A stretch of DNA of 43,726 nt from an uncultured Lentisphaerota bacterium. Its GTDB lineage: Bacteria > Verrucomicrobiota > Kiritimatiellia > RFP12 > UBA1067. The notes under the pieces were generated by a model. That model saw nothing but the letters and a program-made list of their open reading frames with translations, had not been told where the DNA came from and made no database searches. Positions 1-30,837 of this stretch are shown in pieces. The position numbers were made by a program, and so were the translations under genes. Within the stretch, counting starts at the first letter, position 1. The number at the start of each line of letters is the position of its first letter. The DNA is taken from NCBI GenBank assembly GCA_946413265.1, contig CAMKJU010000027.1:1-43726 (forward strand), in the 5' to 3' direction.

Positions 1-1635
1 GAGGGCATAGCCCGTCACGACCACGTCCACTTCGCGGCACGCCTTGTTGAAGAGGCTGCCCGTGAGGCGGGTCGCTCCCTGATGGAGATACACCTTCAGC
101 GATGGCGCGAAGCGCGCGAGCTCGCGCGTCCAGTTGGTCGTCACCGAGACGGGGGCGACGACGAGCGCGGGGCGCGACGCCTTGCGGTGGAGGATGAAGG
201 CGATCGTCTGCGCCGTCTTGCCGAGGCCCATGTCGTCCGCAAGACACGCCCCGAATCCCCACTTCGCGAGGAAAGCAAGCCAGCTCGCACCGCGCAGCTG
301 GTAGTCGCGCAGCGTACCGTGAAAACCGGCGGGCGCAGCCAGCACGCGGAAGCGCTGTTCGCCACGCAGCTCGTTGATAAGGCCACGCAGCCAGCCGTGC
401 GCGCGCACGCGGTCCACGCGGAGCCCCCCGGCGCGACGAAGCCCGAAGGCGAGCGCGATGGCGTCGTGAACGGACACCTTCTTCCCCTTCACGTCGCGCA
501 GCGCGCGCAGGGCTTCGCGCAACACGGCGCGGTCGACCTCGATCCAGCGGTCGCGGAAAAAGACGAACGGCGAGTTCTGGTCGAGGAGGAACTGGATTTC
601 CTGTTCAGTGACGACCTCTCCATCCACGCGAATCGTGAGTTTCGTCGTGACGGGCGCGGACGGCTCGTCCGAGACGGGCGCGAGGTCGGCTTCGGCAGCC
701 ACATGCTCGCCGAGCAGTCCGGGCGGCGGTTCCACCGCGTAGCCGGCGCCGGCGAGTGCCTGCGCGCCAGTGCGGAGGAACGACTCCGCCGCCGCGCGGT
801 CGAGTTCGGCTTCGGTGCCACGGAGCGCGGCGAGCGGGGGAAAGAGGGAGGCAGCCTGTCCGAGGGAGATAAGACCCGCGCGCGTGCGGGGCACGGACGC
901 AAGGCGCAGCCGCCATACGCCGTCCTCTTCGGCGGGTGGTTCGAGGGAGAAGCGCAGCGCGGCGCGGTCTGCGGCGGAGACGCGCAGCGGCGCGCGCCAC
1001 ACGGCGAGGTCGTGCATGAGCGCGCGGATGTCGTCCTCGTCCGGCCATGCGATGCGCCCGTCGTCGCTGCGTAGCGCGAAGAGCCAGGCATCATTGATGG
1101 TATCCGGACGCGCCGCTCCCGTTTCAAGCGGGGTGCGTCCGCCGAAGCGCGCAAGGCCGTCCACGAGCCACGCGAAGAACGCGCCGCGCGACGTATCGAG
1201 CGGCAACCACCGCGCGGCGAATCCGCCCACCTCCTCCACGAGATGCGGCAGGTAGGCGCCGTCGGCGACAGTGCGTGCGGCGGCACGGAACGTCTCCGCC
1301 GCCGCAAGCACGTCATCTCCAAGGAACACGCCTGCCTTGAAGCAGCGCGTCCGCACGTCGGAAAGGAACATCAGGAGATTGCGCATGGAGGGGATGACGC
1401 ACTCCCCTTCTAATCGGACCTCATCCTTGAACCAGACCACCTCGCACACCGCCTCTAGCAACTCATCCCCGACAAGCTGCACGAGGTTGCCTTCCACCCC
1501 CACGGACCTCTCCCCGCGAAACGCAACCATCGGCCCGCTCGGCGAGCGGGCCCTACCAGCGGTCGCCCTCGCTGGTAGGGACGCCTCGCCGAGGCGTCCG
1601 CAGGGGAAATAAATGTCCAGGTGCAGGGTCAGCAT
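1..1635 (-). CDS. SNF2-family DEAD/H-like helicase, C-terminus beyond the window
   Basis: The frame is open for 545 codons from an ATG at 1635 to the window edge, so the C-terminal half is missing. Residues 466-474 read ADDMGLGKT, the Walker A motif of SWI2/SNF2 ATPases, followed by ALVVAPVSVTTNW (motif Ia region) and VVVTGYAL near the edge. The roughly 450 residues before it look like the long N-terminal region of bacterial RapA/HepA-like SNF2 proteins. The family uses ATP to translocate on DNA and remodel protein-DNA complexes; the target here is unknown. The ATG overlaps the rpe stop codon (shared ATGCTGA), so translation is probably coupled. Residues 11-35 are encoded by two inverted REP-like hairpins and look like an added loop in the N-terminal domain. 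Confidence 0.9.
   Translation of the reverse strand, partial: MLTLHLDIYFPCGRLGEASLPARATAGRARSPSGPMVAFRGERSVGVEGNLVQLVGDELLEAVCEVVWFKDEVRLEGECVIPSMRNLLMFLSDVRTRCFKAGVFLGDDVLAAAETFRAAARTVADGAYLPHLVEEVGGFAARWLPLDTSRGAFFAWLVDGLARFGGRTPLETGAARPDTINDAWLFALRSDDGRIAWPDEDDIRALMHDLAVWRAPLRVSAADRAALRFSLEPPAEEDGVWRLRLASVPRTRAGLISLGQAASLFPPLAALRGTEAELDRAAAESFLRTGAQALAGAGYAVEPPPGLLGEHVAAEADLAPVSDEPSAPVTTKLTIRVDGEVVTEQEIQFLLDQNSPFVFFRDRWIEVDRAVLREALRALRDVKGKKVSVHDAIALAFGLRRAGGLRVDRVRAHGWLRGLINELRGEQRFRVLAAPAGFHGTLRDYQLRGASWLAFLAKWGFGACLADDMGLGKTAQTIAFILHRKASRPALVVAPVSVTTNWTRELARFAPSLKVYLHQGATRLTGSLFNKACREVDVVVTGYAL
1532..1599. repeat. REP-like hairpin pair in inverted arrangement (BIME-like), inside the SNF2 gene
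   Basis: Two palindromic units face each other. The first (1532-1552) has the stem GGCCCGCTC/GAGCGGGCC with loop GGC and is followed by CTACCAGC. The second (1579-1599) has the stem GGACGCCTC/GAGGCGTCC with loop GGC and is preceded by GCTGGTAG. Both stems are perfect but differ in sequence. The GTAG tetranucleotide beside the foot of the stem is the hallmark of REP elements moved by RAYT transposases. The insert adds about 25 residues to the helicase without a stop or frameshift. Confidence 0.8.
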
Positions 1636-2288
1636 GCGGCGGCGTCACAGGCGGCGCGGAGGGCGGAAACGGCGGACGCCATGTCCGCCTGCTTGAAAAG
1701 AAAGCTTCCGGCGACCAGTTGGTTTGCGCCGGCGCGCACCGCGTCGAGGGCCGTCTGGGCGTTCACGCCGCCATCCACCCTGATGTCGAGGTGCGGTGCG
1801 CGCGCGCGGAGAGCGGCGACCTTCGGGAGGCAGTCCGCGATGAAGGACTGTCCACCGTAGCCGGGATGGACGGTCATCACGAGCACCTCGTCGCAGAGGG
1901 CGAGGTAGGGGTAGACGGACTCCACGGGCGTCTCGGGGTTCAGCACGATTGCCGGACGCACACCGAGTGCGCGGATGCGCGGGAGTTCGGCGTGGAGGTC
2001 GCAGTCCGCCTCCACGTGGATCTGGATCGTCTGCGCGCCGGACTTTGCGAAAACCTCGAGGTAGAGGTCGGGCCGCGTCATCATCAAATGCACATGGCGG
2101 TAGAAAGCTGGTTCCACGCGGCGGCAGAGCTTCACGATGTCCGGACCGAACGAAAGGTTGGGAACGAAGTGCGCGTCCATGATGTCAAGGTGGAGCGCAT
2201 CGGCACCCGAACGGAAGGCGCGCGTGATATCTGCGGCCAGCGCGCCATAGTCGGCGGCGAGCAGTGATGGAAGAATCTGAACGGCCAT
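1629..2288 (-). CDS. rpe: Ribulose-phosphate 3-epimerase
   Basis: This 219-aa protein has the normal length for Rpe, the TIM-barrel enzyme that interconverts D-ribulose 5-phosphate and D-xylulose 5-phosphate in the pentose phosphate pathway. Visible signatures are LDIMDAHFVPN near residue 34 (metal-binding His and Asp), MTVHPGYGGQSF near residue 138 (metal His and phosphate loop), RVDGGVN near residue 172 and VAGSFLF near residue 190. The ATG at 2288 has GGAGAG just upstream. The gene lies between tRNA-Gly and the SNF2 gene, overlaps the latter by 7 nt, and is expected to act in the cytoplasm. Confidence 0.96.
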   Translation of the reverse strand: MAVQILPSLLAADYGALAADITRAFRSGADALHLDIMDAHFVPNLSFGPDIVKLCRRVEPAFYRHVHLMMTRPDLYLEVFAKSGAQTIQIHVEADCDLHAELPRIRALGVRPAIVLNPETPVESVYPYLALCDEVLVMTVHPGYGGQSFIADCLPKVAALRARAPHLDIRVDGGVNAQTALDAVRAGANQLVAGSFLFKQADMASAVSALRAACDAAAC

Positions 2289-2309
2289 GACTCTCTCCAG
2301 ACAAAAAAA

Positions 2310-2383
2310 TGGAGCGGGCGATGGGAATCGAACCCACGTAAGAAGCTTGGGAAGCTCCTATTCTGCCATTGAATTACGCCCGC
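2310..2383 (-). tRNA. tRNA-Gly (anticodon CCC)
   Basis: Read on the minus strand, the acceptor arms GCGGGCG and CGCCCGC pair, the T arm contains GGTTCGATTCC, and the 3' CCA is encoded. The anticodon stem GGAGC/GCTTC encloses the loop TTCCCAA, giving anticodon CCC for glycine. It lies 2 nt downstream of tRNA-Ser and is probably processed from the same transcript. Confidence 0.95.
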
Positions 2384-2385
2384 CT

Positions 2386-2475
2386 TGGCGGAGAGGGAGG
2401 GATTCGAACCCCCGATACCTTGCGGTATGCATGATTTCGAGTCATGTGCATTCAACCAGGCTCTGCCACCTCTCC
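2386..2475 (-). tRNA. tRNA-Ser (anticodon CGA)
   Basis: A 90-nt class II tRNA. The acceptor GGAGAGG pairs with CCTCTCC, the anticodon stem CATGA/TCATG encloses CTCGAAA (anticodon CGA), there is a long variable arm (TACCGCAAGGTA), the T loop is GGTTCGAATCC, and the 3' CCA is encoded. The long variable arm and anticodon agree with serine. Confidence 0.96.
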
Positions 2476-2491
2476 GTGGAAAGCGGGTTAT

Positions 2492-2520
2492 AGTTTACCA
2501 AGTCCCCGCCCAGCCGTCAA
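2492..2520 (-). promoter_or_regulatory. Sigma70-type promoter for the tRNA-Ser/tRNA-Gly pair
   Basis: On the minus strand, TTGACG (2520-2515) is followed by a 17-nt spacer and TAAACT (2497-2492). The mature tRNA-Ser 5' end is 16 nt downstream of the -10 box. Five of six -35 bases and four of six -10 bases match consensus with ideal spacing. Confidence 0.7.
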
Positions 2521-2557
2521 GAGTCCACAAGCGGAATTTAAAACTCCCAAAAAGGGA

Positions 2558-3421
2558 TCAGTCCGCGCGAACGCGGAAAAAGGCATTGGTGGACGAGGAT
2601 GGAAGCAGATAGACCGTACTTGTGGTGAAGCCGGCATCTGCGGGGACGGAAATGGCGTTCACGGGAACGTCCGAGTCAGGGAACGTAAACGAACATGGTT
2701 TCCAGTCCTTCTTCGTGAGGTCGGTCGCCTCCTCCACCGAGTAGGCGTGTCCGCCGATCGCGTCGAAGGCCAGAGTCGTACCAGCAGTTCCGGTTGCTCG
2801 GGAACGCGACCCTCCCGCAGTGTTGCGCGTGAACGCCGTGATTTTCAGCACGTCTTCGGGATCGAACGGATTGGTGCCGGAAAGCGCCTCGGTGATCGTG
2901 GAGACGCCGTCGCCGTCGTAGTCCTTTGTCGGATCGAACGTCTCGCCCCGCCGCCAGTAGTCGCTGTCTTCCCACTGCGCTTTGAGTTCGGCATAGAGCA
3001 CGTCGTCGATTCCGTCGCCGTTTGCATCCTCCCCGAGAACGATATCGACCTCCCGGAGTGCGCCCGGCGCACCGGCTGTCGCACCGACGACCACGCCGTT
3101 CCAGACCTTGCCAATGTCGTCCGTCACGGAGATTTCAAGCGCGTCGTTCTGCACAGCATAGCCATTTGCGGAAGCGGTCGCCAACGGTACCGAGAGCACA
3201 TAGTTGCGGCGCGAATCGGCACGGAAGAACGTCTTGGTCTTGCCAAGGGCGTTGCCCGAATCGTCGGCGACCTCGATTGTCGCCGTGCGGTCACCGTCGA
3301 ACGCCTTGTGGGTTGCGTCCATCACCCTTCCAAGAAAGGTGTACGGCGTGACGGCGGCGGGCGGATTCGCCGCGAACGCCATGAATGGCACAGAGCACAA
3401 CAGCATGATTGAACGTTTCAT
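2558..3421 (-). CDS. Secreted protein with calcium-binding-type loops
   Basis: A 287-aa protein, not assigned to a named family. It starts with a Sec signal peptide (MKRSIMLLCSVPFMAFAA). The middle carries two Asp/Gly-rich loops, DANGDGIDD near residues 132-140 and DYDGDGVST near 168-175, of the EF-hand/thrombospondin type 3 kind that bind Ca2+. The C-terminal region runs from YSVEEATDL to a terminal FFRVRAD, a layout seen in PVC-bacteria surface proteins. A longer frame extends to 3607, but the ATG at 3421 has a strong AGGAGG six bases upstream and begins the signal peptide. It is 11 nt downstream of the 2881-aa protein's stop codon and is the last gene of the exported cassette, so it probably works with that protein outside the cell. 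Confidence 0.85.
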   Translation of the reverse strand: MKRSIMLLCSVPFMAFAANPPAAVTPYTFLGRVMDATHKAFDGDRTATIEVADDSGNALGKTKTFFRADSRRNYVLSVPLATASANGYAVQNDALEISVTDDIGKVWNGVVVGATAGAPGALREVDIVLGEDANGDGIDDVLYAELKAQWEDSDYWRRGETFDPTKDYDGDGVSTITEALSGTNPFDPEDVLKITAFTRNTAGGSRSRATGTAGTTLAFDAIGGHAYSVEEATDLTKKDWKPCSFTFPDSDVPVNAISVPADAGFTTSTVYLLPSSSTNAFFRVRAD

Positions 3422-3432
3422 GGTTACCCTCC

Positions 3433-6400
3433 TTAGTTTCCGCTTGTGGAGTAGGTTTTGAGGCCGATCTTGATGTCGGTGACGCCCGCGAAGTCGAGCT
3501 TGCCGTCGCGGTTGGAATCGACGCCGTTGATGAATGCCGAGAGCGCCGCGGCGCGGTCCGCGCCGAGCGAGCCGGCGGGGATGATCAGGAGCCACTTCGT
3601 GTTCCACGCGCTGCGCCCGACGAGGCGCGTGCAGTCGAGCGAGTCGTCGTTCGGGTCCTTGCCCGCGTCATCGTAGTAGGCGCGGAAGGACGGGTGCTTG
3701 CGGATGCGCGCGCCGAGGTCGTTGCCGCCCGTCGCACCGTCGTAGAGCGGAGTCCAGTCGGGATCGTCCAGCTGCGTGGAACCGATCACGTAGGGTGCGG
3801 GGATGGTCTGATCGACGACCTTCCACGAGAGGATGGTGCTGCGGTCGCCCACGGCCCTCATGCGGTCCTCGCCGACGGGCACGAGATAGGCGGTCGGCGT
3901 CTTCGCGAGGGAGTCGTCGTCGTAGCCCTCGAAGTGGATGCCTGCCGAGGCGATGTGGGTCGCATAGTACGTGGAATCGAGCGCGGAGTCGCCACCGACG
4001 AGCTTCTGCCCGAAGAAGTTGTAGCCGTGGGCGATCAGCGACGGGAACGGGATCACGAGCCCGGGCTCCTTCTGCTCCGACGAGCCGGCGAGCGGCTGGC
4101 AGTAGTGGCGGAACTCGGGCAGCGCGTTGAGATCGCCGACGACGTACTTCCGGAGTTCCGTCTTCCACGCCTTGTCGCCATCCTCCTCGTCGTAGATGCG
4201 GAAGAGGTCGTGGCGGAGCGAGAACCAGGTGGCGTACGGCTGCGGGTTGTTGATGCCGAGGCGCGGCTTGAGGACGAGCCAGTTGGCGTCCATCTCCGCG
4301 AGGATCGCGGCAAGGCCGCCGTCGCCCTTCGCGGCGTCGGAGGCCGCGATCGGGTCGCCGTCGTCGTCGAATTCGCCCAGGGTGCGCGCGCCGACGATGC
4401 GGGCGATGAAGGCGTCGCCGCTCTTGCGGTCGGACGAGAGGAGACCGGTCTCGTAGTCGTATGCCTGCACGGCGAGATACGCATACTTCTGCGCGAGTTC
4501 GAACTGCGCCGAGTAGCGAGAGAGCGCGTTGTTGCGCGCAAGGCGGAAGAACATCTCGCTGTAGCGCGTCTTCGTGAGCGAGTCGACGGCCTGCTGGCGA
4601 ACGAGCGTGCGCTCGTCGAGGAGACGCTCCGCCTCGGCGATGACGGTCTCGACGGCGCACTGCGCGGTCTGGAGCTCGACGAACGCCGAACGCACCTCGC
4701 CCGCCGCGTCGTTCACCTTCTCGGCGGCGGCGAGCATCCGCTGATAGTACTCGTCGTACTTGTCGACGTATTCGCTCGCCATCTCCAGCTGGTCCAGCAG
4801 CACCTGCAAGAACGTGTCGAACCCGTTGTTTTCGACCAAGGCGTTCTTGGCGGCGACAAGGGCCGTCGCCTGGGCCGTCGTAGCCGCAAGGCGCGGCACG
4901 TTCTGGACGGCGGCTGCGGCGGCCTGCGGATCGACGTTCACGGTCATTCCCGCGCCCACCACCTTCGGGACGGAGTGGAGGACGGCGTCCGAAGCCGCGC
5001 CCGTGAGGCGCATGGAGACTTCAAGCGTATTCGCCGCGATTTTGCTTGCGGTGTCCGTCCAGGCCGAGACCGCGTCCTTCGCGTACTTGATTTCCGTCAG
5101 CGCAAGGATGGCTTGGTCGCGGCCGAACTTCGACCAGATCGTCGTGTTCTCGTAGTCAAACTGGTGGATGGCAACGTCCCACGCCGCAATGGCGGACTTG
5201 AAGTTCGCGTAGGCGGCGATCAGGTTGCCGAGCTCGTCCTGGATGCGCCCCTGCGCCCGGCGCTTGCCCGTGACAGTGGACGGCTTCAGGATGATGCCGG
5301 CGGCGGACTTCTCGAACTCGAGCGTCATCTGCCCGGTCTTGTCGTAGAAGTTATACATTTTCACCACTCCGTCAGCGGCGCCCCCGGTGTACTTCGACAC
5401 GTCGAACTTGTAGATGGCCTTCGTGACGGACTTGACGTCCTCGCCCGCTGAAAGGCCGCACGTCTCCGGCTCCATCCAGGCGTAGTGGACGAGGTCGGGA
5501 CCGTCGTAGCCCTGCACGTACGTCCCGCTCGGCCCGATGTCACCCTCGTACGGATAGCCGAAGTACTCGATCAGCGCGTTCTTCTTCTCCAACTCCATCG
5601 TCTCGAGCTGGTTCTCGCGCGAGAACTGCGACTCCTGCAGCATCCGGATGCGCGACCCGTAGAACTGCGCCTTGTCGAGGAGCTTGCGCGCGTTGGCGAG
5701 CGCGGTGCCGGCGCGCTCGCGGATCTGCTCGAAGTGCGTCTTCGCGTCGTCTCCCTCGCCGATCGGCGTGAGGTCGAACGGAATCGCGGCCGAAGCGAGG
5801 CCGAGCGGATTGAGCCCCGCGTCCATCTGGTCAACCTTCTTCTGGATGGAGGGAATGAGCGAGGCCAGCGAAGCGAGCTCCGGCACGGTGGAGCGGTCGA
5901 TCCGCTTCAGGCCCTCGTCCTCGAAGTCGATGGACATCCCGCTCTCGGCGGCGACGAGCCATTCGCCGCCCTCGACCGTCCAGATGGCGGAGGGGTCCTT
6001 TTCGTCGGCGATGGAGACGTCGCCCGACGGCGCGGAATCCGCAATCGGCCGCAGGTAGAGCGCGAGTCCCTCGGAAAGCGGAGAGACGAACTCGCGTTTC
6101 TCGAGGAGGTCGGCGTCCGTTCTGTACACGTCCTCCCAGAACCTGACCTCGCCGATCTCCCCAGCATACCCCTCGCCGAGCAGCAGGAAGCGCAATTCCG
6201 CACCCAGCGAGCCGACGACCGCCTCCTCGACGATCTTCGCGCCGGACTTGTCGAACAACGTCACGGTCGCCGCGCCGCCGCGAGACCGGATCGCCACGAG
6301 CGTGTTCTCGCCGGACGCGACCGTGCCGATCTCGACGCTGTCGAGTACGATGTCGGACGGCTCCGTGGTCTCGACCGTGGACTCATACACGTACGGCAGG

Positions 6401-9400: not shown

Positions 9401-12078
9401 ACGTACTCCACGAGCACGCCCGGCGCGGACGACGCCTCCGTGTTCAGGTCGGCGCGGAGCGCCCACGCCACGTAGCCGCCCGAGCCCGCGCGCACGATGG
9501 CGTGCTCCTCGTTCGGGTTGTAGCCCGTCTTGCCGCGGTCGTTCTGCACGTAGATCTTCGGCGCGACGTCGCCGTCCGCGTCGATCACGCCGGTCCCGGC
9601 GGCCGGCGGCCCGTTCTCCTCGGCCAGGCACCCGCGGGCGGTGCACACGGTTCCGAGGACCTTTTCGACGAACGTGCGCCTGTCGGTCCCAGTCACGACG
9701 AGATCCGTCCCGTCCACGAAAGAGAAACACCCGGTGAGGTTGTTCTCGCGCCCCGAGTGGACCTTGAGCATTTCCAACCTGATCTCGTCGGCCGACAGCG
9801 CGCGGTTCCAGAAGAGCACCTCACCCACCGTCGTCCCCGAGCGGGTGAAGGCGGTCGGCGCGGACATGGCACCAATCGCGCCCGAGCAGACGCCGGAGAG
9901 GATCCCCTCCGTTGAGCCGTCCCCCGAATAGACGCTCTGCCCGTCCACGAATACGACCGTCCCAGTTGTCGAGAGGCACACTGCCACGTGGAGCCATCCG
10001 GCATTCCCCGGAAGCTGCACGGGATCCGTGTAGTCGACATAGCGTGCGTCCTCGAAACGCTCGAATTCGAGATAGGTCGAGCCGTTACGCCTGTAGACGT
10101 CTACAAGCGCAACCGTGAGATCCTCCCGAGGCGCGCCAAAGCCAAATCCGACCACGTTGCGCGAGAGACCGCTGGGGACATATTCGCCGGGCTTCACCCA
10201 GAACATGACCGTGCCGCCGTCGCTCTCGTCGAAGTACTTGCGCCCGGGAAGCGCCGCCGTTGAGTTCGTCTCGGAGAGGTACAACCCCATGTTGTGCGAG
10301 AAGATCGATTCCGACGCGCTGCCGAGCTGCGAGGCGAGCACGATCTGCGGCGTCTCGCCCGGTTCCGGCCACCGCACGGAATAGACCTGCGGCAGGGTGG
10401 GGATCACGAGCGGCTTTTCCATTCCCTCTTCCTGGATCGCGGTGTTCCACCAAACCTCGATATTTCCACTCGCTCTCACGGCGTAGATGACGGACTCGTA
10501 CTTGTTGGTGTCTGAGGACACCCCGGCGATGTCGGTCGAAACGCCGCCTGCGGTGTCCGGCTTCGGCGCAACGTAGAGGTCCGGATTCCAGATCGGCGCG
10601 GAAGCGGTTTCGTAGATGTAGCCGGGGCTGGAAACGTCGCATGCCGGGTTGAACCCCGGCGCCGTGCCGGCCACGCTTCCGCCGCGCAGCTGGAGCTCGA
10701 CGCCGACGCGGATTTCCTCCGCCGCGAGCGTGAAGTAGTTGGTGTTCGTGCGCATGATCGAATGGATCGGCACGAACCACACGTTGTCGTCCGCCGCGAG
10801 CTTGAGGAGCGAATACCCCTCGCCGAGTGTCGTGAACGTGCCGTCTCCGGTAACCGCGTGGGCGTGTCCCTCCGGTTCCTGGTAGTCCATGAGCGTGGCA
10901 GAGTAGCCAGACGGCACGTAGATGGGGCACCCGGGGGCAGCGGCGGTGCCGCGCACGAACACGGTCGCGTCCTCCGGCCAGTCGCATGCGTACTGGTCCA
11001 GCTCGAACGGCCAATCGACCTCCATCTCGTCCGTCTCCATCCAGTAGACCTCCATGTTCGACGGATAGTCCTTCGTCGGGCGGAGCGGATAGACGTTGCC
11101 GTTCTTGGGGCTGTAGGAATGCATCCCCTTGTGCTGGTAGTAGTAGTCGCCGCGGTTGTCGGACGGCTGCACGTAGGTTGGCTGGGGGCGGAGTCCGGCC
11201 ACGTCGTAGCCGCGCCCGTCGGGCTTGAGGGGCCGCCCAATCTCGCCCTTGAGGCGGTTCACCTGCGGACGGCACACCTCGACCACCTGCACGTGGAGCA
11301 GCCGTTCGAACGTGCCCGAGTCGTAGTAGGCCATCACGACCTGCCCCTGGAGCTGTCCGTAGGCGTAGAGCGTCTTGGTCGAGGGGTCCAGGCAGAGCCC
11401 GCTCACGATCTTGTTGGTGATGACCTGCTGGATGCCGGCGGCGACGTTCGTGACGCTACCGTAGCGGGGCGTCAGGATCTCGTCGCTCCCAAAGAACTTC
11501 ACGAACTTGCCGCTCAGGTCGATTCCCGGGCTGTTGTACGGGTAGTCCGTCCAGTAGATGCGGCGCGGGCGCCCGGAGCACGACATCGACACGTTGTACG
11601 TCATCGGACGGACCAAGCCGTCGGCGAGATACCATGTGAACGTCTGGACGCCGCCACGCGCCGCGAACAGGCGGTGGTCGTCCTCGTCGAAGATGAACTT
11701 GTCGCGCGCGTCGGCCGGCAGCGCGAGGTAGGCGTCGTACGTCGTCGCCCAGTCCACGCCGTCCGGCGGCTCGATCTCGTCGGCGAGATAGTAGTCGGGC
11801 TTGGCGCGCTCCAGCGGGAATCCCGCCTCGGCGCATTCAAGCGCCATGCGCGGCGCACCGAGGAACTCGACGCGCGAAACGCCGCCCGTCGTCGCGGCGA
11901 TGGACATCGCCGGACAGGCGTTGTTCGCCGCAAGCCATGCATTGTCGGCCGCGTCGCCCGACAGGTAGATCGTCGGCGCACTTGGAATGCCCAGCACGTA
12001 AGTGGGGTTTTCCGCCCGCGCCGGGAGGGCCGCGCCTGTCGCGGCCACCGCCATCATCAGCAAGAGCAATCGTCTCAT
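3433..12078 (-). CDS. Giant exported LamG-domain protein (2881 aa)
   Basis: The N-terminus MRRLLLLMMAVAATG..ARA is a Sec signal peptide. Two concanavalin-like LamG jellyroll regions can be seen, at about residues 610-785 (GTVMFWVKPGEY .. GEVLFWNRALSADEIR) and 1750-2005 (WTVEFQIVPV .. GEVRFWEDVYRT). Residues about 2115-2172 and 2420-2515 are charged, helical and probably coiled coils (EYVDKYDEYYQRML, EAERLLDERTLVRQQ). The last 370 residues form a mixed region ending in DSNRDGKLDF, an EF-hand or dockerin-like loop. The two LamG domains suggest glycan or protein binding at the surface. No catalytic motif was recognised. The order of helical bundle then beta-rich tail resembles, only loosely, the C-terminal part of Tc-toxin A proteins. 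An AAGGA ribosome site precedes the ATG. No stop or frameshift interrupts the 8.6-kb frame. Confidence 0.88.
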   Translation of the reverse strand: MRRLLLLMMAVAATGAALPARAENPTYVLGIPSAPTIYLSGDAADNAWLAANNACPAMSIAATTGGVSRVEFLGAPRMALECAEAGFPLERAKPDYYLADEIEPPDGVDWATTYDAYLALPADARDKFIFDEDDHRLFAARGGVQTFTWYLADGLVRPMTYNVSMSCSGRPRRIYWTDYPYNSPGIDLSGKFVKFFGSDEILTPRYGSVTNVAAGIQQVITNKIVSGLCLDPSTKTLYAYGQLQGQVVMAYYDSGTFERLLHVQVVEVCRPQVNRLKGEIGRPLKPDGRGYDVAGLRPQPTYVQPSDNRGDYYYQHKGMHSYSPKNGNVYPLRPTKDYPSNMEVYWMETDEMEVDWPFELDQYACDWPEDATVFVRGTAAAPGCPIYVPSGYSATLMDYQEPEGHAHAVTGDGTFTTLGEGYSLLKLAADDNVWFVPIHSIMRTNTNYFTLAAEEIRVGVELQLRGGSVAGTAPGFNPACDVSSPGYIYETASAPIWNPDLYVAPKPDTAGGVSTDIAGVSSDTNKYESVIYAVRASGNIEVWWNTAIQEEGMEKPLVIPTLPQVYSVRWPEPGETPQIVLASQLGSASESIFSHNMGLYLSETNSTAALPGRKYFDESDGGTVMFWVKPGEYVPSGLSRNVVGFGFGAPREDLTVALVDVYRRNGSTYLEFERFEDARYVDYTDPVQLPGNAGWLHVAVCLSTTGTVVFVDGQSVYSGDGSTEGILSGVCSGAIGAMSAPTAFTRSGTTVGEVLFWNRALSADEIRLEMLKVHSGRENNLTGCFSFVDGTDLVVTGTDRRTFVEKVLGTVCTARGCLAEENGPPAAGTGVIDADGDVAPKIYVQNDRGKTGYNPNEEHAIVRAGSGGYVAWALRADLNTEASSAPGVLVEYVKGGRKAMQWFDVAVTNSVYPELAADCVAGKAFPGPHPIDFFDDPWCPEDSWDEPVATAPAFRDRKNQLWARAAGTATMRMYYRMQEGFAFPALDQASWPKIGTAIPWLSLLGGLPSSPSVLSAMPHPWTWRVKWPDAVPEIEIGRTLTVAASGLPEVWNCKSVGVVWPATEEARNATAMLFDPTVAQASGFPKTTYATVADAIADLGIKQGAGGNGTLRKGRWTFDGLPPSISKRFYLDTTADVTRCLKLEGEMEDNSAGVSLLHVNVLNDSERAVLSSLLDSTASTAGKKAWRTAIAALATKCAKPSPHDAVSANEDRIVYSPRDHYALFTMGATNYVTLIENDATNALMNVAQGDPISMHLVKVVPKYYTGRVVTREDPLNLLSQQLSIIYGEAFAGEPEQYVFEWKKCRPHANGTVPTDFDGEYTAKFEPTAGLTRFTIGHQGDTLENMVNTYYAVRYRAKDANSPAYAAMGDAWSAWTDPPALAEGWVQRVLNNVTPFAQRMRDLAENEAETPVSMIVQAGKPYEGDVALNNDTLKDTGLIQLYETLLSKAESMSLQMGIDDLDANKQLQLAVARLADLYNTLGDEAYIDALNPTIGFGANFNNVEMTGFELDYGALSTALFAFDNQVPTLLDEELALLRGRSGDNAPSTRISPYYNRLVWNFTKGITAGEVAYAVNYDISGNNKGIIDENDAADMYPQGHGDAYGHYLSALSGYYRLLRNPHFTWGAPAMGEMTVADAVVNVDYYDEAQFVKAAYNVAKVAAETVDRTARKAYRDNGGASGAGYLDDDKTRNFGYGEWASRGGFGALCNWAVGNALLPVEPKSGNFWRYAFRNESDFIMLLADEDEESYGDLDPDGQWTVEFQIVPVSAQPSDDANLLTVMGENSAFGFSLADGNKLVFERLSVISATVTNTIYHYAYTNLTESANADSSVTFAVTNGTRILECVFYGTNSVPVALPAGYNAGLQLAQGVDEAPDAPVWDGWACAKWRDPDTGEFLPYVYESTVETTEPSDIVLDSVEIGTVASGENTLVAIRSRGGAATVTLFDKSGAKIVEEAVVGSLGAELRFLLLGEGYAGEIGEVRFWEDVYRTDADLLEKREFVSPLSEGLALYLRPIADSAPSGDVSIADEKDPSAIWTVEGGEWLVAAESGMSIDFEDEGLKRIDRSTVPELASLASLIPSIQKKVDQMDAGLNPLGLASAAIPFDLTPIGEGDDAKTHFEQIRERAGTALANARKLLDKAQFYGSRIRMLQESQFSRENQLETMELEKKNALIEYFGYPYEGDIGPSGTYVQGYDGPDLVHYAWMEPETCGLSAGEDVKSVTKAIYKFDVSKYTGGAADGVVKMYNFYDKTGQMTLEFEKSAAGIILKPSTVTGKRRAQGRIQDELGNLIAAYANFKSAIAAWDVAIHQFDYENTTIWSKFGRDQAILALTEIKYAKDAVSAWTDTASKIAANTLEVSMRLTGAASDAVLHSVPKVVGAGMTVNVDPQAAAAAVQNVPRLAATTAQATALVAAKNALVENNGFDTFLQVLLDQLEMASEYVDKYDEYYQRMLAAAEKVNDAAGEVRSAFVELQTAQCAVETVIAEAERLLDERTLVRQQAVDSLTKTRYSEMFFRLARNNALSRYSAQFELAQKYAYLAVQAYDYETGLLSSDRKSGDAFIARIVGARTLGEFDDDGDPIAASDAAKGDGGLAAILAEMDANWLVLKPRLGINNPQPYATWFSLRHDLFRIYDEEDGDKAWKTELRKYVVGDLNALPEFRHYCQPLAGSSEQKEPGLVIPFPSLIAHGYNFFGQKLVGGDSALDSTYYATHIASAGIHFEGYDDDSLAKTPTAYLVPVGEDRMRAVGDRSTILSWKVVDQTIPAPYVIGSTQLDDPDWTPLYDGATGGNDLGARIRKHPSFRAYYDDAGKDPNDDSLDCTRLVGRSAWNTKWLLIIPAGSLGADRAAALSAFINGVDSNRDGKLDFAGVTDIKIGLKTYSTSGN

Positions 12079-12090
12079 CGGTGGCGATCC

Positions 12091-19640: not shown

Positions 19641-19650
19641 CGAAAGAGCC

Positions 19651-21054
19651 TCAGATCTCGCCGATTAGTATCTGGGGATGTGCTTCGCGGATGCGGACTT
19701 GAACGAGATCGCCGATTCGCACGGGACGCGACGGCTCGAACACGACAATGCGGTTGCCGCTGTCGCGTCCACTCCAACGCGCGGCGTTGCGGAGGGACGG
19801 ACCTTCCACCAGTACCTCGCGCACGGTTCCCACGAGACGGTCGTTGCGCGCCTGTCCGCGCACCTGCTGATCCGCGAGCAGCACCTGGTCACGCCGCTCC
19901 TTCTCCTCCGTCGGCACGTCGTCGGGAAGTGCCGCCGAGCGCGTGCCGGGACGCGGCGAGTATTTGAACACGAACGCATTGTCAAACCCCGCCTCCTCCA
20001 TGAGCGAACGCGTCGCCTCGAAATCTTCTTCCGTCTCGCCGGGATAGCCCACGATCACGTCGGTCGTCACGGCGAACTCCGGGTCGAACGCCCGCAGCTT
20101 CGCGACGGCGGCAAGGTACTCGACGCGCGTGTAGCGGCGGCCCATCTCCTTCAGCACGCGGTCGCTCCCGCTCTGTACGGGCAGATGCAGGTGGCGGCAC
20201 ACCTTCGGGAACTCGGCGTAGGCGCGCACGAGCTCGTCCGTGCAGCCCTTCGGGTGCGCGCTCGTGAAGCGGATGCGCGCGAGGCCGTCGACGGCGTTCA
20301 GCGCCTCGAGGAGACGCGGAAACGCCTCCGTGTAGCCGCCGGGGCTGGGCGGGTCGTCCGGACCCCATGCCGGATTGCGCACGCCGTAGCGCAGGACGCT
20401 CTGCCCGAGCAGGCACACCTCCTTCACGCCGCGCGCGGCGAGCGCGCGCACCTCGGCCACTACCTCGCGCGCGGGACGCGAGTATTCATGCCCGCGCACG
20501 TCAGGGACGATGCAGTAGCTGCAGCGGTTGTCGCAGCCAAGGAGCACGGTCACGTAGCTTTGGAACGACGCGCCGCCCGCGTGCGCGTCCATGCCCGTCG
20601 GCACCTCGTCGTCGTCCGGCAGTTCAAGGATGCGCGTCTCGCCCGCGAGACAGCGTTCCACGAGACGCGGAATCGCGCCGAACCGGCGCGGCCCCACCGC
20701 GAAGTCGAGCTTGGGAAGGGATTTGAAAACATCCGTACCCATGCGTTTGACGGCGCAACCCATGAGACCCACGATTTTAATGGCGGCGGTCGCGGGGCGA
20801 CACGCCCTACCGGCTTCGGCGGTCGCGGGGCGACACGCCCTACCGCGTCCTTCCTTAGCGGCAATCAGGTTGCCGCATTTGCCCACGGCCTTACGTTCGG
20901 CCATGTCACGGACGGTGCAGCTGTTGACGATCACGATGTCCGCCTCGGATTCGTCCGCGGCCTTTTCATAACCGGCGGCGAGCATGAGGGCCTCGACGGC
21001 CTCGCTGTCACGGACGTTCATCTGGCAACCGTAAGTATGGACGAGGAATTTCAT
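19651..21054 (-). CDS. miaB: tRNA-2-methylthio-N6-dimethylallyladenosine synthase
   Basis: A 467-aa radical SAM methylthiotransferase that adds a methylthio group to i6A37 of tRNAs. The N-terminal MTTase domain has its three cluster cysteines, Cys10 (TYGCQMN), Cys46 (NSCTVR) and Cys100 (LMGCAVKR). The radical SAM motif is CDNRCSYC with Cys174, Cys178 and Cys181. The C-terminal part from about residue 400 is a TRAM domain. Residues about 69-91 (GRACRPATA repeated) are encoded by two 33-bp REP-like units and sit between a helix and the strand leading to Cys100, where other MiaB proteins have a short loop. The core motifs are intact, so the enzyme is probably active. The ATG overlaps the SDR stop codon by 4 nt. 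Confidence 0.95.
   Translation of the reverse strand: MKFLVHTYGCQMNVRDSEAVEALMLAAGYEKAADESEADIVIVNSCTVRDMAERKAVGKCGNLIAAKEGRGRACRPATAEAGRACRPATAAIKIVGLMGCAVKRMGTDVFKSLPKLDFAVGPRRFGAIPRLVERCLAGETRILELPDDDEVPTGMDAHAGGASFQSYVTVLLGCDNRCSYCIVPDVRGHEYSRPAREVVAEVRALAARGVKEVCLLGQSVLRYGVRNPAWGPDDPPSPGGYTEAFPRLLEALNAVDGLARIRFTSAHPKGCTDELVRAYAEFPKVCRHLHLPVQSGSDRVLKEMGRRYTRVEYLAAVAKLRAFDPEFAVTTDVIVGYPGETEEDFEATRSLMEEAGFDNAFVFKYSPRPGTRSAALPDDVPTEEKERRDQVLLADQQVRGQARNDRLVGTVREVLVEGPSLRNAARWSGRDSGNRIVVFEPSRPVRIGDLVQVRIREAHPQILIGEI
20785..20845. repeat. Two tandem REP-like units inside miaB
   Basis: Two direct 33-bp units, starting at 20785 and 20818, carry GGCGGTCGC, loop GGG, GCGACACGCC and CTACCG. The period of 33 bp is eleven codons, so each unit adds the same peptide (GRACRPATAxA) to MiaB. 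The stems are imperfect compared with the copies at 28702 and 30701 (CACG in place of CCG on one arm). The GTAG tetranucleotide is present on the minus strand at the foot of each stem. Confidence 0.82.
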
Positions 21055-21701: not shown

Positions 21702-21705
21702 GGCG

Positions 21706-22563: not shown

Positions 22564-22595
22564 GTGCGGGATGTTCCTAGGGATCGTGGCTAGTC

Positions 22596-23477: not shown

Positions 23478-23516
23478 CTTTACTCTTCCCTACTTTTTGC
23501 GTCGTTCCGTACGTTA

Positions 23517-24815: not shown

Positions 24816-24816
24816 A

Positions 24817-25474: not shown

Positions 25475-25496
25475 CGCACGGCGGTGAGGGGAAAAT

Positions 25497-26870: not shown

Positions 26871-26944
26871 GAGCGGATGGGCGCATCGCAAGAACGTCAA
26901 CAGGGAAAGGGGTTTGGGACAAAATACGCCGCTCCCCTCAACGG

Positions 26945-28135
26945 TTAGTCGCCAAAGACACGGTCTGTGCCACGCACGAGGAACGGGCGGTTGAGTCCGT
27001 CCGCGAGGTACTCGCGCACGGCTATGAACAGCGGCTCCATCAGTTCGTCGAACGTGTAGGTGCGCGTGGGCTTGACCTTCGGCGGCTTGATCGGACGGTC
27101 GAACGACACGGAACATTCGAGCGTGAGCGTAAGCGCGCCGGAGGCGAGCGCCAGCACGGTGTTGAGGTTGATCGTGCTGGTCGGCGTGCGGTTCGCGCCG
27201 ATCTTGCCTGCCCTGAGCCCCGCCGCGTGGATCGCCGCGTTGATACGGTCTGAGATCGCGTTCACCCGCTCGACCTTGGCGGGAAGGTCCACCGCGCTCG
27301 GCGTGATGGCGCTCGGCGCGTATTCGTAGGAGTGTCCGTTCAGCACGGCGTCAACGCGCCAGCGCGCGACGAGGTTCAGGATTCCGCGCGCCTCCGCCGT
27401 ACGGATGTCGCCCGGCGTGGCGTCGTGCATGATGTTGTAGCCGTCGGCGTTGGGGTAGCCGCCGGGATACGACACCTTGTCGAGCGGAAGCGGGAACCAC
27501 GACTTGCTCCCGCGCCATCCGACGAGCGAACCGTCCTTCCACGTGCCCTGCGACGCGGCGCGGAAGTCGTGCCACGCGACGCCGCGTAGATGGTCGGGCG
27601 AGATGGCGCGTCCGTCCATGTTCGCGCAGGGTACGATGATGAAGCGGTACTTCGCGATGAGGTCGGTGAGCTCGCGGTGCGTCTTGCCGCGAAAGTCCCT
27701 GCCGGTCTCCAGTTCCTGGATGAGGTTCATCGTTCCGGCCACGCATTCGGGCTCCGCGCCGTGGACGCCCGCGAGGAGAAGAAACGTCTGTTTCGCCGGA
27801 GGGGGATTTCCCATGTAGTTCTTCCACGTGGTGGAGGATGCGCCGGCGGACCAGTTCGTCTGCGGCGGCGCGTCGGGGAAGTCGCCGTAGAAAAGCGCAT
27901 ACACGGGATAGCCCAGCGGCGTGTGCGCGATGATTTCCCTGCGCGAACATTTCGTCGCCCGCTCGCAGATGTCGATGATCTCCTGCGGACGCACCTTCCA
28001 GAAGTCGGGGCGCGGTTCGAGTCCGGGCAGCTCAATCGGCTTGAACCGCGTCGGCCTGATATCCGCACCTGCCTTGGCGAGGAGCGGCAGCGCCGCGCCA
28101 ACCGCCATGCTGGCCATGAATTCTCTTCTGTTCAT
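26945..28135 (-). CDS. Exported M14-family zinc carboxypeptidase-like protein
   Basis: A 396-aa protein with an N-terminal Tat-like signal (MNRREFMASMAVGAALPLL). The M14 zinc site is visible as GVHGAEPE with the HxxE pair near residues 124-127, PCANMDGRA, and the third ligand His in LNGHSYE. LTLECS near the C-terminal end supplies the probable catalytic Glu. The family removes C-terminal residues from peptides or cleaves amide bonds in peptidoglycan; the substrate cannot be told from sequence. The ATG overlaps the stop codon of the ASCH-RadC gene by 4 nt (ATGA), so the two are translationally coupled. It converges with the MATE gene across a 74-nt gap in which no clear terminator is seen. Confidence 0.88.
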   Translation of the reverse strand: MNRREFMASMAVGAALPLLAKAGADIRPTRFKPIELPGLEPRPDFWKVRPQEIIDICERATKCSRREIIAHTPLGYPVYALFYGDFPDAPPQTNWSAGASSTTWKNYMGNPPPAKQTFLLLAGVHGAEPECVAGTMNLIQELETGRDFRGKTHRELTDLIAKYRFIIVPCANMDGRAISPDHLRGVAWHDFRAASQGTWKDGSLVGWRGSKSWFPLPLDKVSYPGGYPNADGYNIMHDATPGDIRTAEARGILNLVARWRVDAVLNGHSYEYAPSAITPSAVDLPAKVERVNAISDRINAAIHAAGLRAGKIGANRTPTSTINLNTVLALASGALTLTLECSVSFDRPIKPPKVKPTRTYTFDELMEPLFIAVREYLADGLNRPFLVRGTDRVFGD

Positions 28136-29061
28136 CGTTTACCGCCTTTCATTTCCCATGTAGATAACTCCTTTGTCGTGTTGACGATTGCGAACTTGGA
28201 GTCCGATCCAAGTATCAAATGGTCGAGTAGCGAGACGCCGAGCAGATTGCCTGCCTCGCGGAGCTTCGCCGTCATGGCGATGTCCGCCATGCTCGGCGTC
28301 AGGTCACCAGACGGATGATTGTGCGCGACGACGATGGAACGCGCGCCCGCCTTGAGCGCTTCGCGGAACACCTCGCCGAGATCAACCGCCGCCGTACCAG
28401 TCTGAGCGCCAAGTGAAACAAGTACCGGCGCCGAGAGCGCACGGCCGGCATCGTCGAACGGCAACATGAAGAATCCTTCGCGCGCACCCGCGATAGGAAC
28501 CGCTGCGTGAAAAAGTCGCGCCGCATCCTCCGCCGTCGCAACCTGTTCGCCTACGCATCGTGAAAGGGAATCCGCCGCCGTCACCTGCATAGCCAGCGAT
28601 TTTGGTATCTGCCACATCCCCACATTGCCCCTGCACGGAATCGGCTGGTCGAAACACACAACTTCGGTCAAATCCCACCAATACTCATATCCCTCGTCCC
28701 ACTGGTAGGGCGGTCGCCCCGCGACCGCCGCATCGGCCGGATACTGCCTTCGCTCATCTCCTCCTTCCAACCGCAAATCATTCCGCCCCCGCGCCTCATA
28801 ATCGCACGCCCCCACGATCTTCCCCGGCCACTCCTTCACGTCGCCCCATGCGGGAATGCGCTCAAACTCCTCCTCCAGCAACGCATGCGCCGCCCACTGC
28901 AAGAAATTACCGTACTCCTCCTTGCAAAACGACTTCGAGCAACTGACCGCACACCTCCCCTTCGCGGGCACGGGCATCACGCTGCGGTTCTCCACGCGCT
29001 TGATTCCAAGCATGATGAGAACCGCATACGGCCCTGTGCATGTAAAGGCGGAGGTGGTCAT
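28132..29061 (-). CDS. ASCH domain fused to RadC/JAMM domain
   Basis: A 309-aa protein with two parts. Residues about 10-152 are an ASCH domain of the PUA-like beta-barrel fold, recognised by YAVLIMLGIKRVENRS, PVPAKGRCAVSCSKSF, and the closing GNVGMWQIP; such domains usually bind RNA or modified bases. Residues about 165-295 are a RadC-type JAB1/MPN domain with the metal motif His247-Asn-His249-Pro-Ser-Gly and Asp260 (HNHPSGDLTPSMAD), then LLDHLILG. RadC-like proteins are common in mobile and defence regions. Residues about 108-120 are encoded by a REP-like hairpin inside the ASCH part. It lies 126 nt after the DUF3990 cassette and is coupled to the carboxypeptidase gene downstream. Confidence 0.88.
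   Translation of the reverse strand: MTTSAFTCTGPYAVLIMLGIKRVENRSVMPVPAKGRCAVSCSKSFCKEEYGNFLQWAAHALLEEEFERIPAWGDVKEWPGKIVGACDYEARGRNDLRLEGGDERRQYPADAAVAGRPPYQWDEGYEYWWDLTEVVCFDQPIPCRGNVGMWQIPKSLAMQVTAADSLSRCVGEQVATAEDAARLFHAAVPIAGAREGFFMLPFDDAGRALSAPVLVSLGAQTGTAAVDLGEVFREALKAGARSIVVAHNHPSGDLTPSMADIAMTAKLREAGNLLGVSLLDHLILGSDSKFAIVNTTKELSTWEMKGGKR
28702..28729. repeat. REP-like hairpin inside the ASCH-RadC gene
   Basis: Plus strand CTGGTAG is followed by a perfect 9-bp stem GGCGGTCGC/GCGACCGCC with a 3-nt loop (CCC on this strand). It is identical to the copy at 30701-30728 in the opposite orientation. It encodes AVAGRPPY within the ASCH domain, keeping the frame open. Confidence 0.85.
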
Positions 29062-29187
29062 TAGTTCTTCACTTCTTCGACGTACTCCAAATCTATACCC
29101 ATCACCTGTCTTACGACTTCTCGAACACGGCAGTAGTTATTATCATTATTCTGGACATCGCCTGGCGTACATATTCCAGGCGCTCTG

Positions 29188-29409
29188 TTACACGCGGCAT
29201 TTGACTCCACGCTCCTCGCAGAGCATGTCGTATAGATAGATCGGACCCTCTCGATAGAGGCCAGTCAAAGGATCTTCCATCTTTCGATGTAACTTGGACT
29301 TGTAAACCATGTCAAAGGCATCCGACATGGACACCCCCTCATAACGAACGACACATTCCACAAGATCGGATGTCGCTCCATCCAGAAGAATCTGCTGTTC
29401 ACTGCTCAT
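29188..29409 (-). CDS. 73-aa protein of the DUF3990 cassette
   Basis: A small acidic, helical protein. Residues such as LLDGATSDLVECVV, SMSDAFDMVYKSKLHRKMEDP and TGLYREGPIYLYDML form a pattern I associate with short proteins found next to DUF3990 genes in gut bacteria; this is from memory and unverified. It overlaps the 3' end of the DUF3990 gene by 11 nt, so translation is coupled. Its size and place suggest a partner or antitoxin-like role, but nothing in the sequence proves it. Confidence 0.72.
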   Translation of the reverse strand: MSSEQQILLDGATSDLVECVVRYEGVSMSDAFDMVYKSKLHRKMEDPLTGLYREGPIYLYDMLCEERGVKCRV

Positions 29410-29911
29410 GCCAAACCTCCTTCAATGTCAGAAACCTTGTAGAACGCGGCGTATGGAACGAATATTGCATAACGCGCCATGGTGCCTCCTGCATCGCCTT
29501 GAGTACGTCATCCTGTTTCATCATGCCACTGCGATACAGACGAATCATGTTTCGTATCTTGTCATCAGCAATGAAACCGATTACTACGTCGTATAGTTTG
29601 TCGATATTATGGTCAGGCGCGGAACGATCAAAACAACGGTTAGCCAAGACGAAAGACATCCAATCTGTGTCCATGGATTCAAAACTCCTGATAGCCATAC
29701 CTGCTATGGATGCCGCGTCAAGGTCAAACTCGTACACGCTGATTGTCTTTATCCCATCGCCCTGCCTTCTAGTTACAAGAGAAGCCATCGAACGGGCAGA
29801 ATCCATATCAGGCGTCAAATAAAAGCCCTGCCCGAAATCAGTACCTCTCCGCCCCTTCATTGGAATCGGCTTTGTCACATCGCAGTTCGACCCATGATAG
29901 AGGGTTATCAT
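29399..29911 (-). CDS. DUF3990 protein, ADP-ribosyltransferase-like
   Basis: A 170-aa protein whose first 35 residues carry the DUF3990 signature: LYHGSNCDV with His6, KGRRGTDFGQGFYLT with Tyr31, then a helix starting DSARSMA. The His in HGS and the Tyr in GFYLT are arranged like the H-Y part of the ADP-ribosyltransferase active site; a third catalytic residue was not assigned with confidence. The family is uncharacterised and often stands in small overlapping gene sets that look like toxin-antitoxin units. The ATG overlaps the stop codon of the upstream fusion gene by 4 nt, and the 73-aa gene overlaps its 3' end by 11 nt. Predicted cytoplasmic. Confidence 0.86.
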   Translation of the reverse strand: MITLYHGSNCDVTKPIPMKGRRGTDFGQGFYLTPDMDSARSMASLVTRRQGDGIKTISVYEFDLDAASIAGMAIRSFESMDTDWMSFVLANRCFDRSAPDHNIDKLYDVVIGFIADDKIRNMIRLYRSGMMKQDDVLKAMQEAPWRVMQYSFHTPRSTRFLTLKEVWHEQ

Positions 29912-30837
29912 TTCAGCATTCCCCCATTGTTACGGCAAACCTTGGCAAGATCGTCAACGAGAGATTCCATTGGGAGACAACTCAAAGGTTCATGGTAGTC
30001 GTCAAGATAGGCGAGCCCTTTATATTTCTTCAAATACGCGTATGCATCACTTGACGAGAGGGAGTAAGCGCGTCCAAACTCTCCAATGCTCATGACTATG
30101 CTCTCGATTTTCCCAAGAAGAGGCGACATGCCGACGACAGGTGTCCATTGCAAAAAATGACATTGCACCGCCGCTTCGCAGACGCGGAGGCGGTTGCGCG
30201 GGACTTTGGCGAGATCGGAGGGAAGGTAATGCTCGAGGGGCGCGAATTCGCCGTCGGCCTTGAACTGCTCGATAGCCTTCTTCACCTTCGCCGAACGTCC
30301 GCCGAAGTCCGCCGTGCGCGCGATCACGAAGGGATCGTCGAGACGAGAGCCGTAGTCGAGATGCTTCGCACTGAAGACATAGTAGCGCGAGCCGTGCGGC
30401 GCGCCCGGTGGTCGCGCCCTACCACCTCTGCGTCTCTGCGCCTCTGCGTTAAAAGCTCCGCTTGCAGGATAACTGTATTCATCGACAAGTTCCTCACGGG
30501 TCTTGATGCCGATGAATTCCGCTTCAAACACATGCCGCGTACCCTTTACATCCGCGTAGAGCCAAAGTTCCTTGATGGCCGCAAACGACTTTTCATCGAA
30601 CTCGTCCCCGTCCTTCACGGGGTAGTTGTAGATGCCGTGCCGCTTGATCCAGGCGAGCTGCTTAGCCTTGTACGTGCCGACAAGGACGGCAGCGGCGCAC
30701 GGCGGTCGCGGGGCGACCGCCCTACCGGCGTCATTCGTGGACATACGCCCGCCCGTAGTTGGTGGCGGCGCGCTCGGCGAGCGCGCCCTACCAGATGTGA
30801 CCTTATGCGGTTTTCTCTTCAAAAGTCTCTGTGCCAT
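29908..30837 (-). CDS. Fusion of an unknown domain with a DUF3791-like C-terminus, carrying REP-like insertions
   Basis: A 309-aa protein starting at the ATG at 30837 (MAQRLLKRKP). Residues about 51-225 are one unrecognised conserved-looking domain (LVGTYKAKQLAWIKRHGIYNYP .. VIARTADFGGRSAKVKKAIEQF .. RLRVCEAAVQ). Residues about 243-309 (GKIESIVMSIGEFGRAY .. DAYAYLKKYKGLAYLDDY .. VDDLAKVCRNNGG) match the DUF3791 pattern, normally a separate gene of about 70 codons that precedes DUF3990. Residues 15-48 and 130-148 are encoded by three REP-like units and an AEAQRRR-type repeat, so the N-terminal part has been enlarged twice. A GTG start at 30930 is rejected because the extended -10 lies downstream of it. 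Confidence 0.75.
   Translation of the reverse strand: MAQRLLKRKPHKVTSGRARSPSAPPPTTGGRMSTNDAGRAVAPRPPCAAAVLVGTYKAKQLAWIKRHGIYNYPVKDGDEFDEKSFAAIKELWLYADVKGTRHVFEAEFIGIKTREELVDEYSYPASGAFNAEAQRRRGGRARPPGAPHGSRYYVFSAKHLDYGSRLDDPFVIARTADFGGRSAKVKKAIEQFKADGEFAPLEHYLPSDLAKVPRNRLRVCEAAVQCHFLQWTPVVGMSPLLGKIESIVMSIGEFGRAYSLSSSDAYAYLKKYKGLAYLDDYHEPLSCLPMESLVDDLAKVCRNNGGMLK
30398..30450. repeat. Degenerate REP-like unit joined to an AEAQRRR-type repeat
   Basis: 30398-30424 holds GGCGCG, a degenerate centre, CGCGCC and CTACCA. It is followed at 30425-30450 by CCTCTGCGTCTCTGCGCC and CTCTGCGTT, a sequence built of 8-9-bp steps. On the coding strand the pair encodes NAEAQRRRGGRARPPGAP in the middle of the domain, between SYPASG and SRYYVF. 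Peptides of the form NAEAQRRR are a known sign of this intergenic-type repeat in PVC and other genomes. Confidence 0.7.
30701..30794. repeat. Two direct REP-like hairpins near the 5' end of the fusion gene
   Basis: Unit 1 (30701-30728) has the stem GGCGGTCGC/GCGACCGCC with loop GGG and CTACCGG. Unit 2 (30767-30794) has the stem GGCGCGCTC/GAGCGCGCC with loop GGC and CTACCAG. Both are perfect 9-bp stems with 3-nt loops; the stems differ in sequence. They encode GRAVAPRPP and GRARSPSAP, and the frame stays open. Confidence 0.85.

Follow-up and report, generated by a model that had tools for sequence, protein, structure and literature searches.

GTAG hairpins, likely mobile, seem to rewrite spare protein loops repeatedly in an uncultured Kiritimatiellia bacterium

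Genes and hairpin units of the window

The stretch of DNA analysed here (the window) is the whole contig CAMKJU010000027.1 (C27), 43,726 nucleotides (nt) long, from the 4.70-Mb draft genome (GCA_946413265.1; 92.8% complete) of an uncultured Lentisphaerota bacterium of the lineage Kiritimatiellia. It carries short palindromes resembling repetitive extragenic palindromic (REP) elements, in which a GTAG foot is followed by a 9-bp stem closed by a 3-nt loop, giving a strict unit of 25 nt. Six strict units were present in the window; the 9-bp stem was perfect in five, and one A.G mispair was seen in the sixth, at 30398. The units, the short repeat joined to one of them and the two host genes are listed below.

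1532..1556, minus strand: GTAG hairpin unit, stem GGCCCGCTC, perfect; in the spacer 5' of the SNF2 gene
1575..1599, plus strand: GTAG hairpin unit, stem GGACGCCTC, perfect; in the spacer, with its GTAG end facing that of the 1532 unit
28132..29061, minus strand: ASCH-RadC host gene, an ASCH-like N-terminus fused to a RadC JAB domain, 309 amino acids (aa)
28705..28729, plus strand: GTAG hairpin unit, stem GGCGGTCGC; in frame within the ASCH-RadC gene, encoding ..AVAGRPPY..
29908..30744, minus strand: DUF3791 host gene, C-terminal DUF3791, 278 aa from the called start; frame open to 30930
30398..30422, minus strand: GTAG hairpin unit, stem GGCGCGACC, one A.G mispair; in frame in the DUF3791 protein
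30423..30454, minus strand: second short repeat TTTTAACGCAGAGGCGCAGAGACGCAGAGGTG, joined to the 30398 unit, encoding NAEAQRRRG
30701..30725, minus strand: GTAG hairpin unit, stem GGCGGTCGC; within the part of the DUF3791 gene that encodes the N-terminal tail
30767..30791, minus strand: GTAG hairpin unit, stem GGCGCGCTC; 5' of the start called for the DUF3791 gene (30744)

The ASCH-RadC protein matched PF04002 at residues 176-290, while its N-terminal part had no Pfam match and is presumed to be ASCH-like from its motifs. An earlier interpretation of this DNA (the sequence-only reading) had described eight units at four genes, each in a stop-free frame. The family and its presence inside genes were confirmed, and the four perfectly paired stem sequences that it named were correct; the count of eight and the claim that every unit is in frame did not hold. 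Stop-free, in-gene placement could be confirmed for the 28705 unit in ASCH-RadC and for the 30398 and 30701 units in the DUF3791 protein. The facing pair at 1532-1599 was located in a spacer bounded by the SNF2 gene (called start 1530) and the ribulose-phosphate 3-epimerase gene (1629-2288), and the 30767 unit lies before the called start of its gene.

The SNF2 N-terminus was rejected as a coding host, as gene calling placed the pair in the spacer. The two palindromes proposed in MiaB were also set aside: in one, a GTAG at 20218 goes with two mispairs and a loop of 4 nt, and the other lies at 20272-20307. The stretch aligned gap-free to the solved MiaB structure 7mjz, and these palindromes are therefore likely ancestral protein sequence with chance pairing. 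No orthologous stretch was found among the relatives' sequences compared. MiaB and SNF2 are thus not hosts of units.

Copy number, stem pairing and distribution

A count of genomic copies, set as a check beforehand, revealed the pattern GTAGGGNNNNNNCNCCGNNNNNNCC at 285 places (152 and 133 on the two strands), compared to none for the reversed control. The units occurred as singles, pairs and arrays. Pairing was evaluated on 100 of the genome's own places, selected from the foot, the loop and the ends of the stem alone, leaving the six inner pairs unused. These inner pairs were Watson-Crick in 87.5% across 28 distinct sequences; re-dealing the arms 1000 times yielded a mean of 49.6% and at most 62.5%. 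Twelve of the 28 sequences were perfectly paired, and eight carried an A.G mispair at pair 7. The stems covary across copies, and the earlier view that pairing is kept while the sequence changes was upheld.

A search of 40 genomes, the own genome included, showed a match in 37 and at least 15 matches in 23; the reversed control never exceeded 6, so that low per-genome counts mean little. An exact 27-mer taken from the commonest unit had matches in at least 95 stretches of named genomes. The 80 matches listed comprised 34 titled Kiritimatiellae, 34 'uncultured bacterium', 7 Verrucomicrobia, 3 Lentisphaerae, 1 Bacteroidales and 1 Saccharofermentans, and all 34 Kiritimatiellae titles among them named goat, sheep, yak or roe-deer gut, which makes a gut habitat likely for the organism studied here.

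Location in genes and reading frame

Location was determined with a home-made hexamer gene finder trained on the genome's own sequence. The own set consisted of the window and 40 further stretches (746,959 bases), mostly picked for the first 100 listed places, on the largest contigs; the second set consisted of 80 loci on contigs of other metagenome-assembled genomes (MAGs), chosen by the GGCGGTCGC type. In the 41 own sequences, 73 of 106 units lay wholly within called genes, 32 in spacers and 1 at an edge, while 5000 random 25-mers fell as 4492 genic, 364 spacer and 144 edge. The second set gave 113 of 165 units genic, 50 in spacers and 2 at edges, with 4118, 579 and 103, respectively, for 4800 random positions. 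Genes hold most of the sampled copies in this lineage, which is the addition made here to the intragenic repeats already known.

The reading phase across units was assessed independently of the gene calls, using unit clusters with a strong coding signal on both flanks. Phase was kept in 99 of 106 clusters, lost in 7 and on opposite strands in none; among 1662 random positions it was kept in 1582, lost in 68 and on opposite strands in 12. Length differences were then compared at 45 homologous unit sites with both flanks anchored among own, related and other MAG sequences. The length differed at 30 sites, which include the spacer site 1532 and the edge site 30701-30791, and at 29 of these it differed by multiples of three only. 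Flanks of spacer units could rarely be aligned in relatives, and ordinary spacers measured in the same way therefore served as the control: 14 of 35 differed by multiples of three only, and their 105 comparisons gave 55 zero differences, 22 multiples of three and 28 others.

Reading frames were used unevenly: units with a coding score above 10 on both sides ('strong' units; 50 of 106 in the own set and 82 of 165 in the second) used the five open frames 56, 34, 21, 14 and 7 times (n = 132, with orthologues counted repeatedly). The rarest were the frames yielding arginine-rich peptides. The TAG frame was absent among strong units, which is forced by gene calling and carries no evidential value.

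Host proteins and unit-bearing loops

Units were found within the Pfam matches of Hsp33, the DALR domain of arginyl-tRNA synthetase (ArgS), Glycos_transf_3 of pyrimidine nucleoside phosphorylase, an EcoRI-type methylase, NTP_transferase and Glycos_transf_2. Others lay in or between the domains of Tex, DprA, an M1 peptidase, a beta-galactosidase and further proteins, and some hosts had no Pfam match. ArgS, which had a single match in the genome, contained two units. Both were absent from the ArgS of relatives G010 and G005, which is 51 nt shorter there, while G012 carried both units together with 36 nt holding a CAACTACC-type repeat. The unit peptides were insertions relative to the solved ArgS and phosphorylase structures; in DprA the unit fell outside the part aligned to a solved structure.

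The AlphaFold2 model of ASCH-RadC (mean predicted local distance difference test score, pLDDT, 82.5) had pLDDT below 50 at residues 98-118, where the unit covers 111-119. In the DUF3791 model (mean 80.9), pLDDT was below 50 at 1-15 and 108-115, and the units cover 7-15 and 108-116. Unit-free segments of low pLDDT were also seen, at 297-309 of ASCH-RadC and 196-206 of the DUF3791 protein. The window units of both proteins thus sit in segments predicted to be disordered.

At the window's two clear hosts, the residues were not ancient sequence shared with relatives, in which a different hairpin, another short repeat or a shorter loop was found instead. The loop of the DUF3791 protein at 30398 held other short repeats in relatives (LAAKNAKSAKN, GRVERVERVDGR) or a short form (YPAKGKAHGEKYLLF), and in G005 it was shorter and had no unit. 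The position 30423..30454 was occupied by a GCCGCAAAGAACGCAAAGAA-type repeat in relatives, and the 30701 stretch was 36 nt shorter in G010, G012 and G013. In the window and in relatives, the short repeats CGCAGAGGCGCAGAG, GCCGCAAAGAACGCAAAGAA and CAACTACC were observed to share unit-bearing protein loops in open frame, for example as NAEAQRRRG and LAAKNAKSAKN.

Different hairpins at the same site

The unit loop of ASCH-RadC is bounded by the conserved motifs ...CDYEA and WDEGY. Between them, the stem was GGCGCGATC in G010 and G012, GGTCACGCG in G013, GGCGCGGAC in G001 and GGCGGTCGC in G000, and a decayed version was found in G005. Among the best 120 of 1006 homologues, 87 had both boundary motifs (33 were dropped); a unit-coded 6-mer was present in the loop in 55 of the 87 and nowhere else in those proteins.

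The 53 same-site unit comparisons comprised 26 identical pairs, 9 differing by 1-3 bases and 18 differing by 4-8, and the large differences altered both sides of one to three base pairs. Seven of these 18 came from one array, whose copies are not surely pairable, and the remaining 11 from four sites: 28705, 30398, position 10567 of locus L088 and the paralogues in L106 and L108. The L106/L108 paralogues (87% flank identity) have the hairpin at a position matching on both sides and in the same orientation, with both arms changed; at the other three sites the position matched on one side only. A fifth site was a rhamnosidase-like paralogue pair in L103, 83% identical and with different hairpins. 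In every one of these five cases, the hairpin of a relative or paralogue was wholly different, with both arms changed and pairing mostly kept. The two-humped pattern of differences fits block replacement better than point mutation.

Separately, a second RNA polymerase, short and divergent, was noticed in the own genome (L081:3358-8319 on contig C7). Its single 1653-aa frame covers both a beta and a beta' part and has a GADFDGD motif; a stronger rpoB match lies on C65. The own copy and that of G012 (L176, near 12346) bear different palindromic inserts in the same loop.

Interpretation and alternative explanations

The 25-nt GTAG hairpins are best described as high-copy repeats whose sampled copies are mostly genic and nearly always in frame, and they are probably non-autonomous mobile units that would survive in spare loops. 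Single units would move and could insert almost anywhere. The copying enzyme may be an HUH Y1 transposase acting on single-stranded DNA, similar to TnpA-REP, the REP-associated tyrosine transposase (RAYT), and now unlinked, lost or unassembled. The frame rule would be simply explained by loss of frame-breaking copies, that is, by purifying selection and not by targeting; a unit would survive where it adds a stop-free, multiple-of-three stretch to a dispensable loop. Once lodged, its site may act as a landing pad for exchange of the whole hairpin. The predicted unit peptides (GRAVAPRPP, GGRGATALP, AVAGRPPY) would be translated and have no role beyond being tolerated. A broader proposition, which is quite possible and which we hold tentatively, is that genes are the main home of this palindromic mobile repeat, that lodged sites are landing pads swapping hairpins and short repeats in frame, and that the loops of many proteins, essential enzymes among them, come from mobile DNA.

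Several observations weigh against this interpretation. The genic share depends on the home-made gene calls, and the per-base density of units was approximately 5.4-fold higher in spacers than in genes (own set), so genes cannot be called preferred. One unit site broke the length rule with a 515-nt gap. The length test has no proper spacer arm, ordinary spacers being substituted. At unit sites called as spacer, all six non-zero comparisons were multiples of three and two were zero (eight in total), although four of the six came from one site that is likely coding; five further spacer comparisons with a unit gave three multiples of three and two zeros. Single-step insertion was not caught among the sites compared, where clean empty sites were few and most unit-free relatives had other loop sequence. 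No GTAGGG unit was found in 31 Y1-transposase loci (flanks of at most 1.5 kb, less where a contig ended), nor within 1.5 kb of a Y1 gene in 20 stretches, where the nearest was about 1.7 kb away; the two sets overlap, cover part of the Y1 matches and could miss a linked gene in assembly gaps. The RAYT-like Y1 gene of the own genome (L001, C41:28124-28842) was instead flanked on both sides by the palindrome GCCGCCAAGATGGCGGC.

Fortuitous palindromes in GC-rich coding sequence, or spacers wrongly included in gene calls, have a negligible probability and are refuted for the family as a whole. Weak palindromes do exist, as in MiaB, and the 1532-1599 pair had been overcalled as coding; against this stand the 285 copies with none in the control, and units that lie within Pfam matches and are absent or different in orthologues. 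It is very improbable that the units are kept out of the protein by removal, at the RNA level or by ribosome bypassing. The mobile bypassing elements of yeast mitochondria provide an analogue, and the location of hairpins inside single-copy ArgS and many unrelated proteins would suit such removal. However, removal would require neither a stop-free frame nor lengths in multiples of three, and both the 99 of 106 clusters in phase and the 29 of 30 sites speak against it.

That the units are a selected tool, cassettes exchanged to diversify loops to the benefit of the host, is improbable too. Different whole stems at five sites and unit peptides in the ASCH-RadC loop of 55 of 87 homologues could be expected of such a tool, but many hosts are housekeeping enzymes, the loops are predicted to be disordered in both models made, and unrelated short repeats occupy the same loops. 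Independent insertion at hot spots, without exchange of a resident hairpin, is possible though somewhat doubtful as the source of the same-site differences. Several unrelated repeat families share loops, G005 has a shorter unit-free loop at 30398, and IS608-type HUH enzymes choose short cleavage sites (PMC8266576). The sites 28705, 30398 and L088 10567 do not decide between hot spot and exchange, because their positions match on one side only; the L106/L108 hairpin, which keeps its base position on both sides and its orientation while both arms change, speaks against independent insertion.

If likely mobile units do keep rewriting dispensable protein loops, as they appear to, the differing hairpins of relatives amount to a natural, replicated catalogue of protein sites that tolerate inserted peptides. 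They also open to testing the turnover of short palindromes that lack a linked transposase, and the question, not settled by earlier work on intragenic repeats (PMC3733652), of whether REPs in bacteria can steadily supply new protein sequence.

Search for a putative mover

The sequence-only reading had linked the units to RAYT transposases, and a RAYT as their mover was not supported by the 31 and 20 sequences described above. The own genome has two Y1_Tnp genes, and more were present in relatives. The 31 loci contained three other GTAG hairpins (two in L049 and one in L067), compared to one in the reversed control, and no Y1 gene in the loci examined was flanked by units of the same family, as in a RAYT-linked REP (REPtron). 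Clustering of the Y1 proteins, with L277-L279 and L284 left out, revealed no clade plainly tied to unit copy number. As GCCGCCAAGATGGCGGC flanks the RAYT-like gene on C41, the GCCGCCAAGATGGCGGC family and not the GTAG family is the RAYT-linked repeat seen here; it occurred at 36 genome places with at most one mismatch and reads AAKMAAFP in an open frame. GTAG hairpins whose stems differ from those of the units were found flanking Y1 genes in two relatives (L295:2773-3682 in G029 and L049:1388-1733 in G023); these are likely REPtrons, and for this reason a RAYT-type mover of the GTAG units is plausible.

Comparison with known systems

The contrast with known REPs proved weaker than first claimed, because GTAG repeats inside genes are already in print. 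Di Nocera et al. (2013) described GTAG repeats as lying chiefly between genes, often close to RAYTs, with intragenic copies too; the highest intragenic number was in Opitutus terrae, a Verrucomicrobia species, and different REPs were found at about the same recB site in two Xanthomonas species (PMC3733652). The units share with that superfamily the GTAG at one end outside the stem, a stem and loop (9 bp, 3 nt) within the range of 5-13 bp and 2-20 nt given in its Table 1, a high copy number (285), occurrence as singles, dimers and clusters, and some intragenic copies, including in tRNA synthetases (PMC3733652). They differ from it in that most sampled copies are genic, none is near a Y1 gene in the loci examined, and several homologous sites have wholly different stems. 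REPs in the strict sense are mostly extragenic, and a 2025 survey defined them as seldom overlapping protein-coding regions (PMC12306157), whereas spacers held 32 of 106 and 50 of 165 units here.

The group 3 REP of Stenotrophomonas maltophilia has nearly the same architecture (GTAG, 8-bp perfect palindrome, 3-nt loop) and is cleaved by a known TnpA-REP (PMC8266576), while no cognate enzyme was found here in the loci examined. The GCCGCCAAGATGGCGGC palindrome of the same genome is likewise short and of high copy number, but flanks a RAYT-like Y1 gene. The Rickettsia palindromic elements (RPE) resemble the GTAG units in being palindromic and lying within unrelated protein genes, and in-frame copies in protein genes are common to both. 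RPE-1 is longer than the GTAG unit, and RPE-4 and RPE-6 are filed as CGTC-tagged (PMC3733652), in contrast to the GTAG foot of the units, which was also the search criterion. A limited literature search found no paper on such hairpins in Kiritimatiellae. While GTAG repeats inside genes were already known (PMC3733652), the cross-genome frame test with a control, the whole-hairpin differences at one site and the loops shared by several repeat families are new here.

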